From positions 1 through 64,000 of IMG/VR virus record IMGVR_UViG_3300022839_000007: DNA of 64,000 nt; one strand, written 5' to 3'. This document shows, piece by piece, positions 16,376-21,611 of this stretch; the stretch's first letter is position 1; each line of letters begins with the position of its first letter. Origin of the DNA: a virus. The notes under the pieces were generated by a model. It had not been told where the DNA came from. It worked only from the letters and a program-made list of their open reading frames with translations, and ran no database searches. The translations under genes were made by a program, and so were the position numbers.

Positions 16376-18649
16376 TTATCCTCTTGACATATCGGAGCCT
16401 AAGGTACCGATACTTTTCTTCATTCTTCGCTGGACTTCTACACTCTCGCTTAACAACACTGCCACGGTGTTCATCGTATTATTTAACTGATCTAGCTTTG
16501 ACTCTAGCCCAGTTTGGTTATTACTAGAAGGAAGCGACATAGTAGACGAAGATGGAGATTTTTGTGACTTATAAAATTGCGAAAGTATTTCTCCAGCAGG
16601 CGTGTTTCTCGGAACCACTGCTTCTTTTCCATGCAATGTTGTAAATGTTTGTTTTCCAAAATCTTGAAATCCATTAGTTCCAGCAGCAAACCCTTGGTTT
16701 GTAGCGTTTGCTAGCAACGAATCTTGTCTACCAACTAATGACTCAATTTTTGTTAAGTCTCTTAAAAAATTAATAACGCCTGACGTACTAGGATCCAATG
16801 TTTGACGTAAATCTTGTTCTTCGTTTAATGTTAAACTTGTTCCGCCTCTAAGTTTATCAACTAGTGCCTGTGTGTTTGACTTAGATAATGCTGTGCCGCC
16901 AACGCCTCCTAGTAAATCTTTAATTACACTTACGATAGCATCGGTTATACTTGTGCCAACTTTAGTAAAAATTTCATCCATTTTTGTAAAAAATGTATCG
17001 ACATACTTTTGAATTGTAGGATCGTTCCAGAAGTTTGAAAATGTTTTCATCAAAGAATCTGCTGCATTAACAAATTTATCTTCAATGGTCTTCCATAATC
17101 CGTTAGCATCAACTGATTTTACAAATTTTGAAAACCAATCTGCAATAGATGTTGCTTGATTTTGTAACCATATCAACGAACGTGCAAGACCGCCGCTACT
17201 AACAAACTCAGATAACCTTTCTAATGCATTAGTTAAGAATCCGTTTTTGCCCAATAGATTCTCGACTGCCGACTGGAATGATTTACCAGCAGCATTAAAC
17301 GGATTAGATACACTGTTAGGATCAAACATTGACAACAATTGATCTCCAAATTGGGTTAACTTAGTAAAGAATGCACTTTTTATAAAGGTATCTAGGAACG
17401 ATTTTCTCAAATTGATAATAATTTGTTCAAACTTGCCAAGCGCGCCTGTTATTAAATTTCTTTTTCTCTGTTCTTCTATTGCAGACTTTGTGTTTCTGCC
17501 AGCTGCTTGTGTAAGTTCAAAGGATGCATCGTATATTTCAGCTAATGCGCCAAGGTATCCGCCCTTATCTCGCATAACTTGAAGTGTTGCCCCGCTAATT
17601 GTTCCTGATGCCTTTGCTAACGCAGGTGCAAACTTAGTAATACCAGCTTGAAATTCTTCCATGCTCATGTTTTCCATGTTCATTGCAAATTCTTTAATTC
17701 CCGGAACAGTGTTTTGAAGTGCGCGGGCAAGATCGCTTTGTGCTACTCCGTCAGATAAGTCTAGTAATGCGCCGTTGAGACTAGGCATTGTACTTTTTGT
17801 AAAAGCAAGAATAGCTGCTGTTTCTTGTCTAGCTGCTTCGCCGCGTTCTTTTTCTACTCGATTTAGAATATTTCTAGTCAACGTGTCGGTTTCTAATGCT
17901 GTAATTTCTTGTTGAAGTGCAGACTTCTGTTTGCCTGTTAGCTTAGAAAGCAGGTCTAACTGTCTAATATAGTTTGCAGCACTCTCTTGGCTTTCAGCAT
18001 CACTACGCAAATTCCGTCTACCCCGCATAGTTTCAATAGTTATAAATCCAACCAGTCCATCATTTATGTCCTTAATGGTCATTCCCATGGTAAAAAAGTC
18101 GCTGCCAATGCCTAGTCGTATATCTCTACTAAAATCAGCAAAAAACTTTGCACCTTTGGTAGCAGTTCCTCCAAAGTTAGTTAACGCTTCGCTATTATTG
18201 GCAATTAATTGAGTAAAGTCATTTATAGTCATTGATGCAGCAGCACTTGAGCTTACCATATCAAATATACTATTGTTAAAACTTGCTCCTACGCTACTCA
18301 ACGAACGAAAATCATCTACTAACTCGTCAACAAACCCTGCGAGTCTAGCAATTTTGCTAGTGCCTCCGAGTAATGCGCTGGTAAGGTTACTTAATCGTTC
18401 TTTTCCGTATGCTAATTCTTTTCCAAAGTCTTTGAGAGACCCTGTGCTGCCTCGTAAGGCATCATTGTTATTTCTTTGTGACCTAGTGCCATCTCTAAGA
18501 CTTCTGTCATACAACTCTCTAAGACGGTCAGCAGAATTATTACCATTAGCTGCGCCAAGTGTGCGCATTGCCTCGACTAGCGATTGTAGAGTAGCTTCGC
18601 TGGCTACACCACGCATGCCTCCTACATTTTCAATATTAACGTTATCCAC
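16376..18649 (-). CDS. Putative tail tape measure protein (gp29 position equivalent)
   Basis: 757 residues, predominantly helical. The first 130 residues are polar and helical (SLVEAMRTLG, LRELYDRSLRDGTR). The centre has alternating hydrophobic and helical stretches (ASMTINDFTQLIANNSEALTN). The C-terminal part contains FAAGTNGFQDFG-KQTFTTLHGKEAVVP (about 660-690), a motif commonly seen near the end of phage tape measure proteins. It would set tail length and be ejected with DNA. T4 gp29 is 590 residues. The gene is divergent from the gp26-like gene, which carries a tail-chaperone-like frameshift, and that neighbourhood supports the tape measure assignment. Direct homology with gp29 was not tested. 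Confidence 0.65.
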   Translation of the reverse strand: MDNVNIENVGGMRGVASEATLQSLVEAMRTLGAANGNNSADRLRELYDRSLRDGTRSQRNNNDALRGSTGSLKDFGKELAYGKERLSNLTSALLGGTSKIARLAGFVDELVDDFRSLSSVGASFNNSIFDMVSSSAAASMTINDFTQLIANNSEALTNFGGTATKGAKFFADFSRDIRLGIGSDFFTMGMTIKDINDGLVGFITIETMRGRRNLRSDAESQESAANYIRQLDLLSKLTGKQKSALQQEITALETDTLTRNILNRVEKERGEAARQETAAILAFTKSTMPSLNGALLDLSDGVAQSDLARALQNTVPGIKEFAMNMENMSMEEFQAGITKFAPALAKASGTISGATLQVMRDKGGYLGALAEIYDASFELTQAAGRNTKSAIEEQRKRNLITGALGKFEQIIINLRKSFLDTFIKSAFFTKLTQFGDQLLSMFDPNSVSNPFNAAGKSFQSAVENLLGKNGFLTNALERLSEFVSSGGLARSLIWLQNQATSIADWFSKFVKSVDANGLWKTIEDKFVNAADSLMKTFSNFWNDPTIQKYVDTFFTKMDEIFTKVGTSITDAIVSVIKDLLGGVGGTALSKSNTQALVDKLRGGTSLTLNEEQDLRQTLDPSTSGVINFLRDLTKIESLVGRQDSLLANATNQGFAAGTNGFQDFGKQTFTTLHGKEAVVPRNTPAGEILSQFYKSQKSPSSSTMSLPSSNNQTGLESKLDQLNNTMNTVAVLLSESVEVQRRMKKSIGTLGSDMSRG

Positions 18650-18688: not shown

Positions 18689-18716
18689 GGATAAATATGC
18701 GTATAAGTATTTATCC
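18689..18716. promoter_or_regulatory. Palindromic pair of divergent late promoters
   Basis: GGATAAATA (18689-18697), a 10-bp spacer, and TATTTATCC (18708-18716) form a perfect inverted repeat with 9-bp arms. Each strand therefore presents GATAAATA, one firing toward the gp26-like gene (ATG at 18731) and one toward the tape-measure-like gene (ATG at 18649). A further AATAAATA is on the plus strand at 18665-18672. Confidence 0.75.
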
Positions 18717-18730
18717 GGAGAAAAAAATAC

Positions 18731-19588
18731 ATGAATATTGTTTCGCAAAATCCGCTATCACGACATTTTAGACAGCCTAAACTATTTGTTAAATTGCCTA
18801 GCGGCGGGGTATTTTATCCACAAGGAATGTTAGAAGCAACGGAAAGTGGAGAATTTCCTATATATTCAATGACAGCCAAGGACGAATTGATGTTCAAGAC
18901 TCCTGACGCATTGTTAAACGGCGAGTCAACCGTGAGAGTGATACAAAGCTGTATTCCAAATATTAAAAATGCATGGATTATTCCTAGTATTGATATTGAC
19001 GCTATTCTGATTGCCATAAGATTAGCAACTTATGGCGAAAAAATGGAAATAACTGTTAATGTTCCGGTTATAAATGAAGAGCGCGTATACGATATTGATC
19101 TTAGAACTGTTTTGGATCAATTACAAGCAAATACTTTTGAAAATATTATTCAATTAGACGGATATAGTATTGAAATACATCCCCTTACTTACAAAGAATT
19201 TACAGAAACTGCATTAAAGACGTTTGACGAACAACGTTTGTTTAAAGTTATTAATAACGACGACCTTAGTGAACTAGAAAAGATAGCTAAATTTAACAAA
19301 ACTTTCAACAGACTTACTGATTTAAACATCAGTAGTATAGTTAAGAGTGTAAAGTGTGTGATGTTTGACGGCGAATTACCAGTTACTAATACCGAACATA
19401 TTATTGAGTTTTTTGCAAATGCCGAAAATCAAGTATTCAAGACTGTACTCGACCATATTGCAGTTCAGAGAGACAAATTTAGTATTAAGCCATTCAAGGT
19501 ATCATTACCTCCTGAAGATATTGAACGCGGAGCACCTGCTACGTTGGAAGTTCCTATATCGTTTGATCAATCAAATTTTTTCGCATAA
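18731..19588 (+). CDS. gp26: T4 gp26-like baseplate hub/tail assembly protein, 0-frame product
   Basis: 285 residues. FVKLPSGGVFYPQGM, YSMTAKDELMFKTPDALLNG and IPSIDIDAILIAIRLATYGEKM correspond to the family of T4 baseplate hub proteins represented by gp26 (208 residues in T4). Near its 3' end the frame crosses a slippery run (19573-19582) just before its stop at 19586-19588, and a coding -1 frame continues downstream. It starts 34 bp after the late promoter at 18690. Its neighbours are the tape-measure-like gene (divergent) and head genes. In many phages the pair upstream of the tape measure is a tail assembly chaperone made as a short form and a frameshifted long form, and this gene fits that plan. 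Confidence 0.8.
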   Translation: MNIVSQNPLSRHFRQPKLFVKLPSGGVFYPQGMLEATESGEFPIYSMTAKDELMFKTPDALLNGESTVRVIQSCIPNIKNAWIIPSIDIDAILIAIRLATYGEKMEITVNVPVINEERVYDIDLRTVLDQLQANTFENIIQLDGYSIEIHPLTYKEFTETALKTFDEQRLFKVINNDDLSELEKIAKFNKTFNRLTDLNISSIVKSVKCVMFDGELPVTNTEHIIEFFANAENQVFKTVLDHIAVQRDKFSIKPFKVSLPPEDIERGAPATLEVPISFDQSNFFA

Positions 19589-19638
19589 GGATCTTATCTT
19601 GGACTATTGAGCAAATTCTCAATGAAGTTAAGATCCTT
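19573..19638 (+). promoter_or_regulatory. Programmed -1 ribosomal frameshift signal
   Basis: The 0 frame reads TCA AAT TTT TTC GCA TAA. The heptamer A AAT TTT (19573-19579) and the overlapping T TTT TTC (19576-19582) both fit X XXY YYZ. Downstream, AAGGATCTTA (19587-19596) pairs perfectly with TAAGATCCTT (19629-19638), beginning seven bases after the first heptamer or four after the second. Inside the loop, ATTGAG (19606-19611) pairs with CTCAAT (19618-19623). This is the classical layout of slippery site, spacer and stimulatory stem. Confidence 0.85.
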
Positions 19639-19812
19639 GACAATCAAAGTAAACGTCTAAAATTTGAATTAGCAAAGCTTTGTTGGTACATGAGAGGCGG
19701 GTTGAGTATGAGCGAAGCTTATGAAACATGTCCTGAGGACAGAGAAGTCATGTTCAAACTCATTGAGGAAAATTTAGATACAGCTAAAAAGATTAATCAA
19801 CCATTCTGGTAA
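19579..19812 (+). CDS. -1 frame extension of the gp26-like protein
   Basis: After slippage the ribosome would read 77 more residues from 19579 to the TAA at 19810-19812, giving a 360-residue fusion. The extension begins FRIRILSWTIEQILNEV and contains LAKLCWYMRGGLSMSEAYE and EENLDTAKKINQPFW. It is helical, charged and protein-like, and has no ATG or plausible SD until deep inside (Met at about 19671), so independent initiation would make only a truncated piece. The 0-frame stop leaves only a three-base gap to the convergent gene at 19816, so this stretch has no other explanation. Confidence 0.8.
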   Translation, partial: FRIRILSWTIEQILNEVKILDNQSKRLKFELAKLCWYMRGGLSMSEAYETCPEDREVMFKLIEENLDTAKKINQPFW

Positions 19813-19815
19813 TTA

Positions 19816-20553
19816 TTATGAAAAGCGACTACGCTGGAATCCGGCTCTCTTTTTATAAGCAGCTCTTATAACTTGTATAATAATAGATTTAACTTCTCGA
19901 CGACTTAACTTATCAGAACCGTCGGCTTCGTAAATACTATTGTTTAGTTTTCCTGGTCCTACTTTTCCATAACTACTTAATCGTTGATTTTTATTAAATT
20001 TACTACTAACTATAGTGCTAGGTGCAGACGCTGCTCTACGTGACTTAAATGACGGACTTTGAGCAGCAGACGCTGCTCTACGTGACTTAAATGACGGACT
20101 TTGAGCAGCAGACGCTGCTCTTTGTGCAGACGCTGCTCTTTGTGCAGACGCCGGACTTTGAGCAGCAGACGCCGGACTTTGAGCAGCAGACGCTGCTCCT
20201 TGTGCAGACGCTGCTCCTTGTGCAGACGCTGCTGAAGTTCGTCGACGCAGTAATCCAGAACTATTGTAAGCTGCATTAGATGCTCCACCCTTAGGAGAAA
20301 ATCCAACAAGAATAGACCTAGCAGTGTTGCCTAGACCTTTTTGTCCAAAATAATCCTGTAAATCATCAGCTGTAATAGTTTTAATTCCACTATTCTTCAT
20401 CCATACAATTAATTCAACTTCCATCTGACGTGTTTCATCAGATATGCTAGTTTTTGCTATTCGATTAGCTTTCTTAATATCACGTCCCTTGCGAGTAATC
20501 CCAAGATTCAGTTCTTCAAGGTCTTGTTTTTCAATCAGATCTCGGATTTTCAT
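19816..20553 (-). CDS. Ala/Ser/Gln-repeat protein of unknown function
   Basis: 245 residues. The N-terminal 90 residues are ordinary: LIEKQDLEELNLGITRKG, then EVELIVWMKNSGIKTITADDL with a DYFGQKGLG stretch that suggests a small globular helical domain. Residues of about 108-175 are low-complexity doublets such as AQGAAS twice, AQSPASA twice, AQRAAS twice and SFKSRRAASAAQSP twice. The C-terminal 60 residues are basic (SRREVKSIIIQVIRAAYKKRAG). It is expressed from two adjacent late promoters. Possibly a flexible virion or DNA-associated protein, but no family is recognised. Confidence 0.7.
   Translation of the reverse strand: MKIRDLIEKQDLEELNLGITRKGRDIKKANRIAKTSISDETRQMEVELIVWMKNSGIKTITADDLQDYFGQKGLGNTARSILVGFSPKGGASNAAYNSSGLLRRRTSAASAQGAASAQGAASAAQSPASAAQSPASAQRAASAQRAASAAQSPSFKSRRAASAAQSPSFKSRRAASAPSTIVSSKFNKNQRLSSYGKVGPGKLNNSIYEADGSDKLSRREVKSIIIQVIRAAYKKRAGFQRSRFS
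20024..20233 (-). repeat. In-frame composite tandem repeats (42, 18 and 21 bp units, each doubled)
   Basis: On the plus strand, a 42-bp unit beginning gcagacgctgctctacgtga occurs at 20024 and 20066. An 18-bp unit ending in ctctttgt occurs at 20108 and 20126. A 21-bp unit with gcagacgccggactttgagc occurs at 20144 and 20165. An 18-bp unit ending in ctccttgt occurs at 20186 and 20204. All units share the core gcagacgc and all are multiples of three. The doublet-by-doublet pattern suggests repeated slipped-strand duplication of a single ancestral unit. Confidence 0.85.
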
Positions 20554-21170: not shown

Positions 21171-21611
21171 TTAAATTAAATTAGATTTTCGCATTTCCGT
21201 AAGTGTTCTTTTAAGAATATCCGAACTGCCTATTCGTACATTAATAATGCCGTTATAGTATTCGTCTGTTTCTAATACGCGCCTATTGATTTGTTCTAAT
21301 GCTTCGATGTAACTTAATATACCTCTACTAGGACAATAATGTAAGATTTCTCTTGTAAAATTATTTTGTCCTAAGGTTGCAACATCGCTATTTAGATGGT
21401 CCGACGACCCCCAATAAGTTTGCCAATCACTTTCTACTGTGCTATGCCTTTTATTTTTTTTGCCTTTGAGTGGTGGTTTAGTTTTTTTAAATCTAGCTAA
21501 CTTTTTTCCTATATACTTGCGATTGTTAGTAAGATTTGTTATCAAATACACAAACCCTTCGCAGTCTCTAGGAAGCTCTATAACTTCGTTGCCTTGATAC
21601 ATCCAATTCAT
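21171..21611 (-). CDS. GIY-YIG-like endonuclease (Seg-type)
   Basis: 146 residues. The N-terminal motif GFVYLITNLTNNRKYIGKK matches the first two strands of the GIY-YIG nuclease fold (VYL and YIG), followed by a Lys/Arg-rich helix and SDWQTYWGSSDHLNSDV, which is typical of the small phage members of this family. Phage proteins of this group are often annotated as putative Seg-like endonucleases and cut DNA with a single GIY-YIG domain. No separate DNA-binding domain is visible in the annotated frame. It lies downstream of gp46 in the minus strand, separated by 114 bp from the next gene. Confidence 0.75.
   Translation of the reverse strand: MNWMYQGNEVIELPRDCEGFVYLITNLTNNRKYIGKKLARFKKTKPPLKGKKNKRHSTVESDWQTYWGSSDHLNSDVATLGQNNFTREILHYCPSRGILSYIEALEQINRRVLETDEYYNGIINVRIGSSDILKRTLTEMRKSNLI

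Follow-up and report, generated by a model that had tools for sequence, protein, structure and literature searches.

In phage lambda (gpG/gpGT) and in P2 (E/E+E′), two tail assembly chaperones, one short and one long, come from the same gene, the long one through a −1 frameshift close to the 3′ end; the locus described here is alike in this predicted arrangement, and its slippery sequence differs from theirs. Among T4-like phages, frameshifting is reportedly conserved in several groups, and T4 is said to use genes 26 and 51. Identification of the tail assembly chaperone (TAC) genes of T4-like phages is credited to Vladimirov, Gautam and Davidson (Virology 2022, 566:9), as cited in two later papers, of which one refers to poly-T −1 slippery sequences in T4-like TAC-N genes (PMC12846349) and the other to T4-like phages that possess separate short and long genes instead of frameshifting (PMC10885494). 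As far as these citations go, the frameshift arrangement itself has been on record for T4-like phages since 2022, and the original prediction, which knew of no documented case in a T4-like gp26, was outdated on this point; added here are the comparative breadth, the jumbo-phage cases and the lineages that lost the heptamer.

In T4, two separate genes are used. The proteins gp26 and gp51 each match the PF12322 profile along its entire length and are hence paralogs; gp51 combines a gp26-like domain with a C-terminal piece which matches phrog_634, and the end of gene 26, unlike the gene described below, carries no slippery run. Matches that cover 80% or more of T4 gp51 are found in 1,334 phage records, and in the Pseudotevenvirus EC-F2 a long gp51-like gene lies beside a short gp26-like gene. 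In cyanophages, gp51 was described as lacking about 200 N-terminal residues, at about 20% of the usual length, and it was listed as 'missing' in Aeh1 (Sullivan et al., 2010; PMC3037559).

A gp26-family gene with a conserved slippery heptamer

The locus is part of a stretch of 64,000 nucleotides of viral DNA, called the window in the following, and its features are collected in Table 1; the coordinates given in the original prediction were right. The product of the 0-frame ORF reaches 38.4 bits with PF12322 (T4_baseplate, the gp26/gp51 family) over residues 56–242, above the gathering cut-off of 24.5 bits, and also matches phrog_150. A second PF12322 gene, as in the two-gene solution of T4, was not found in the same contig (157,788 bases, possibly incomplete). 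Searches of the PDB with gp26, by sequence and by fold, gave nothing convincing, and the predicted structure model (pLDDT 83.7) has no significant match to a solved chaperone fold in the PDB.

Table 1. Coordinates of features at the gp26 locus, in positions of the window
Feature	Position	Strand	Basis or remark
757-aa gene, divergent, lying between portal and gp26 where RaK2-type phages have their tape-measure-like gene	16376..18649	−	synteny
Two facing T4-late-promoter-like GATAAATA motifs between the divergent genes	18690..18715	18690 on +, 18715 on −	motif scan; putative function
gp26-family ORF, 285-aa 0-frame product (candidate short chaperone, TAC-N)	18731..19588	+	PF12322 1.4e-9; phrog_150 4.1e-13; 80 IMG/VR relatives kept
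Overlapping heptamer A AAT TTT, fits X XXY YYZ, not conserved	19573..19579	+	first codon varies
Slippery heptamer T TTT TTC, conserved; P-site TTT 19577–19579, A-site TTC 19580–19582	19576..19582	+	47/47 distinct clade members
−1 extension: F284 + 76 aa, FRIRILSW...ENLDTAKKINQPFW, then stop; candidate C-terminal domain of the long chaperone (TAC-NC)	19579..19812	+	open in all relatives; hhalign; model
0-frame stop codon TAA	19586..19588	+	at the base of the hairpin stem
Putative stimulatory hairpin, 5′ arm	19586..19596	+	RNAfold −19.6 kcal/mol, z = −4.0; covariation in 10 close relatives
Inner stem-loop, 7 bp, 19605–19611 with 19618–19624	19605..19624	+	RNAfold; not clearly conserved among relatives
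Putative stimulatory hairpin, 3′ arm	19629..19639	+	RNAfold; covariation in relatives

The ORF ends in AAT TTT TTC GCA TAA, and AAATTTTTTC at 19573–19582 holds both of the overlapping heptamers that had been proposed. Both are present, but only T TTT TTC is conserved. A AAT TTT was dropped as the main slip site, as it is broken where the preceding codon, which among relatives is AAT, GAT, AGT, GCT or others, is GAT, AGT or GCT. When all stop-to-stop frames of the 64 kb that reach 150 codons are considered, the in-frame T TTT TTC at 19576 has no second copy; it lies one codon ahead of the 0-frame stop and is more than a chance occurrence.

A scan of viral contigs (IMG/VR) found 242 relatives, 80 of which were kept, and after removal of near-duplicates 47 distinct members of the window's clade and 20 other sequences, 67 in total, were compared. 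As these sequences are related, the counts that follow are not numbers of independent events: U UUU UUC is present in 47 of 47 distinct clade members, and TTTTTTC or TTTTTTT in 63 of the 67 overall, with U UUU UUU in three. In every kept locus that reaches the end of the gene, TTTTTTC precedes the 0-frame stop by one to six codons, and the −1 frame is open. Among 52 conserved columns of the 47 clade sequences, the two slip codons are the sole columns with a single codon, their Phe codons being always TTT TTC, and the other Phe codons in the clade's genes are TTT in 79% and TTC in 21%.

A programmed −1 frameshift yielding the tail assembly chaperone in two lengths, short (TAC-N) and long (TAC-NC), is the preferred reading, with a probability of roughly 0.93. 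Most ribosomes would stop at the TAA at 19586 and release the 285-aa short form (gp26, TAC-N), while a fraction, aided by the hairpin, would move back by one base at U UUU UUC and read on in the −1 frame, giving a predicted fusion of 360 aa (TAC-NC) composed of residues 1–284 and a helical C-terminal domain of 76 residues. We infer this slippage and its efficiency, as well as a chaperone function and binding of the tape measure protein; in the simplest account, modelled on lambda gpG/gpGT, gp26 would serve as the short chaperone and the frameshift product as the long one, and both forms may coat or fold the tape measure protein before assembly of the tail tube. The original prediction had already drawn this analogy to frameshifted tail assembly chaperones, which is supported by the present comparison.

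The gene was also said to be divergent from a tape-measure-like gene. A divergent neighbour on the minus strand does exist, but no profile library confirmed its tape-measure identity: the 757-aa product has no family hit in any of them and BLASTP to the RaK2 gene is weak. The neighbour is of the right size, in the right position and transcribed divergently, and its RaK2 counterpart is annotated as tape-measure-like, so that it is presumed, on position and on this annotation, to be the tape measure gene. The T4-like TACs of Vladimirov et al. (2022), as described where that study is cited, are alike in their TAC-N and TAC-NC forms and, in some groups, in a poly-T slippery site; the present gene differs in its divergence from the presumed tape measure gene. 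In the gap between the two genes, the facing GATAAATA motifs lie in an inverted repeat, GGATAAATA...TATTTATCC. Farther out, the portal gene (gp20, PF07230; 14166–16340, minus strand) carries an intein (PF14890 Intein_splicing, residues 356–554, 2.3e-10). On the other side, the 245-aa product of the next gene, 19816–20553 (minus strand), contains a low-complexity array of Ala/Ser/Gln repeats (AASAAQS-type units) and has no convincing family match, and 21171–21611 (minus strand) is a GIY-YIG-like endonuclease gene of the group I intron type (TIGR01453, 1.3e-5, below the cut-off).

The −1 frame beyond the slip site

In agreement with the original prediction, the −1 frame of the window is open from the slip site up to 19812 without a usable start near its 5′ end, the first ATG, GTG or TTG coming 36 codons past the slip. 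The 44 complete clade copies of this frame contain no premature stop, and the other two frames have 6–9 per copy. In the clade, most change falls on the third position of −1 codons, beginning at the slip site, and this excess is already seen in the first eight codons, ahead of most common starts. Conservation of the frame, as FFR.., sets in at the slip site itself, and the extensions of the clade share the motif W(Y/F)MRG...R...N(L)..T. Judged by this pattern, the −1 frame from the slip site onward evolves as a protein under selection. The window's own extension matches nothing among the family profiles of Pfam, PHROGs or NCBIfam; its structure model consists of four helices (pLDDT 88.6), and PDB sequence and fold searches gave nothing convincing, the model having no match to a solved fold.

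The long product could alternatively be dispensed with by translational coupling, in which ribosomes would terminate in the 0 frame and start again close by in the −1 frame, so that the extension would be a separate small protein. Such a product matches the annotation of 'gp51' in cyanophages as a separate protein, an ATG overlaps the stop or lies within a few codons of it in part of the set (for example in L007, L024, Phosso, 121Q and S-ShM2), and in Vibrio K357 the heptamer is absent and TAATG present. However, 33 of the 63 heptamer-bearing sequences, the window included, have no ATG, GTG or TTG in the −1 frame, neither upstream nor among its first 10 codons, so that re-initiation cannot be the general route, and the conservation of the frame begins right at the slip site. 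The synonymous positions of the heptamer are moreover invariant even in sequences with an ATG nearby. The third-position pattern together with the absence of stops and of starts is what a frameshift predicts and re-initiation does not, and coupling is regarded as an improbable explanation of the locus; re-initiation could add a free C-terminal domain in those relatives that have an ATG at or just past the stop.

The downstream hairpin

The perfect 10-bp stem originally predicted, 19587–19596 with 19629–19638, was found exact, and RNAfold extends it to 11 bp, enclosing the inner stem of 7 bp. The hairpin starts about 4–6 nt 3′ of the heptamer; a stimulatory RNA structure in this place is frequent, though not universal, in frameshifted chaperones of the G/GT type. 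In ten close relatives, 97% of the stem cells are paired, against 27–56% in slid controls, and two stem positions have changed on both sides with pairing retained; the comparison of gp26 loci, proposed beforehand as a check, thereby found the slippery site conserved and some compensatory changes in the stem. Since the shuffle control for both-side changes was moderate, with 6 of 500 shuffles reaching the observed cell count and 108 of 500 the observed pair count, the covariation is to be taken as supportive rather than decisive. The mean folding z over the 63 sequences is −1.91 downstream of the heptamer versus −0.47 in a control stretch. The hairpin is borne out by the sequence of the window. 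Its long form is confined to near relatives; elsewhere the corresponding stretch forms a shorter stem or is little structured, many distant members having a shorter stem at similar spacing and often a weak z, and the 3′ arm differs between subclades.

This spacing also bears on transcriptional slippage, by which the polymerase would add or drop bases on the T6 run and a mixed mRNA pool would encode both forms. A conserved homopolymer run would suit such a mechanism. Six Ts are short for polymerase slippage, however, and the run is not longer but held at T6 followed by C in 60 of the 63 heptamer-bearing sequences; its phase is right for a tandem-slip heptamer, with the hairpin at ribosomal spacing. 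Slippage during transcription is considered even less probable than coupling.

Distribution and the paralogy of T4 gp26 and gp51

The same junction is present in the cultured jumbo phages Atu_ph07, Phosso, PA5oct, RaK2, 121Q and GAP32, whose gp26 proteins share about 30–35% identity with that of the window, in Pelagibacter phage HTVC008M, in the cyanophages S-ShM2, ACG-2014f and MED4-213, and in Sinorhizobium phiN3, Stenotrophomonas Marzo, Vibrio D481 and Aeromonas phiAS5. The T TTT TTC site is likewise found in Aeh1, Aeromonas 65 and Cronobacter S13, which together with phiAS5 represent the frameshift form among Straboviridae. With slippery site and −1 frame conserved in every relative of the clade and in distant cultured phages, the predicted mechanism at the end of this gp26-like gene is supported. 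No relative was found in which a single frame runs intact through this site, the nearest case being T4 gp51, a separate paralogous gene; a sequencing or assembly error or the decay of a single ORF, as a frame broken at a homopolymer in one contig might suggest, is ruled out by the identical split in all relatives, from dozens of independent metagenomes and many isolate genomes.

The extensions of the window's clade and of the jumbo phages are clearly homologous by hhalign (99.4%, E 1e-21), whereas either of them matches the C-terminus of T4 gp51 or of the cyanophages weakly (hhalign probability 5–27%), and phrog_634 is not matched by the extension of the window's clade. The −1 extension of HTVC008M matches phrog_634, the C-terminal domain of T4 gp51, at 2.4e-19.

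The short cyanophage gp51 ('baseplate hub assembly catalyst') corresponds to the −1 extension beside gp26, with T TTT TTC at the junction, and is annotated as a free short protein, unlike the fusion predicted for the window. A frameshift would explain both its truncated look and the gp51 reported as 'missing' in Aeh1, where the extension is present and unannotated. In Aeh1 (L118, 2277–2444) as in Cronobacter S13 (L120, 2229–2393), the conserved extension lies in a stretch without an annotated gene.

Four sampled phages, Vibrio K357 and the Ackermannviridae T751, 3M and Sajous1, have an open extension without U UUU UUC. K357 has TAATG in place of the heptamer, and no ATG was found in the first 12 codons of the −1 frame of the three Ackermannviridae. 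One possible history, which we hold at somewhat less than even odds, is that the U UUU UUC frameshift is ancestral for the whole T4-like superfamily, with the jumbo phages RaK2, PA5oct and Atu_ph07 among its members, that T4-type Straboviridae replaced it with the duplication into genes 26 and 51, and that Ackermannviridae and Vibrio K357-like phages kept the −1 frame and lost the heptamer. The direction, frameshift first and duplication later, is suggested by the distribution of the forms. If this history is true, the phages without the heptamer imply at least one further, undescribed route to the long form or to a free C-terminal domain.

The preferred reading, a programmed −1 frameshift, would mean that the long tail chaperone has been missed in the annotation of many T4-like and jumbo phage genomes, in which the extension is currently unannotated or named as a free 'gp51' or a hypothetical protein. 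T4 gp26 and gp51 have for a long time been catalogued as hub proteins whose function is unclear; the same reading would connect them with the G/GT chaperones known from other tailed phages, in agreement with the published TAC identification as it is cited (Vladimirov et al., 2022).
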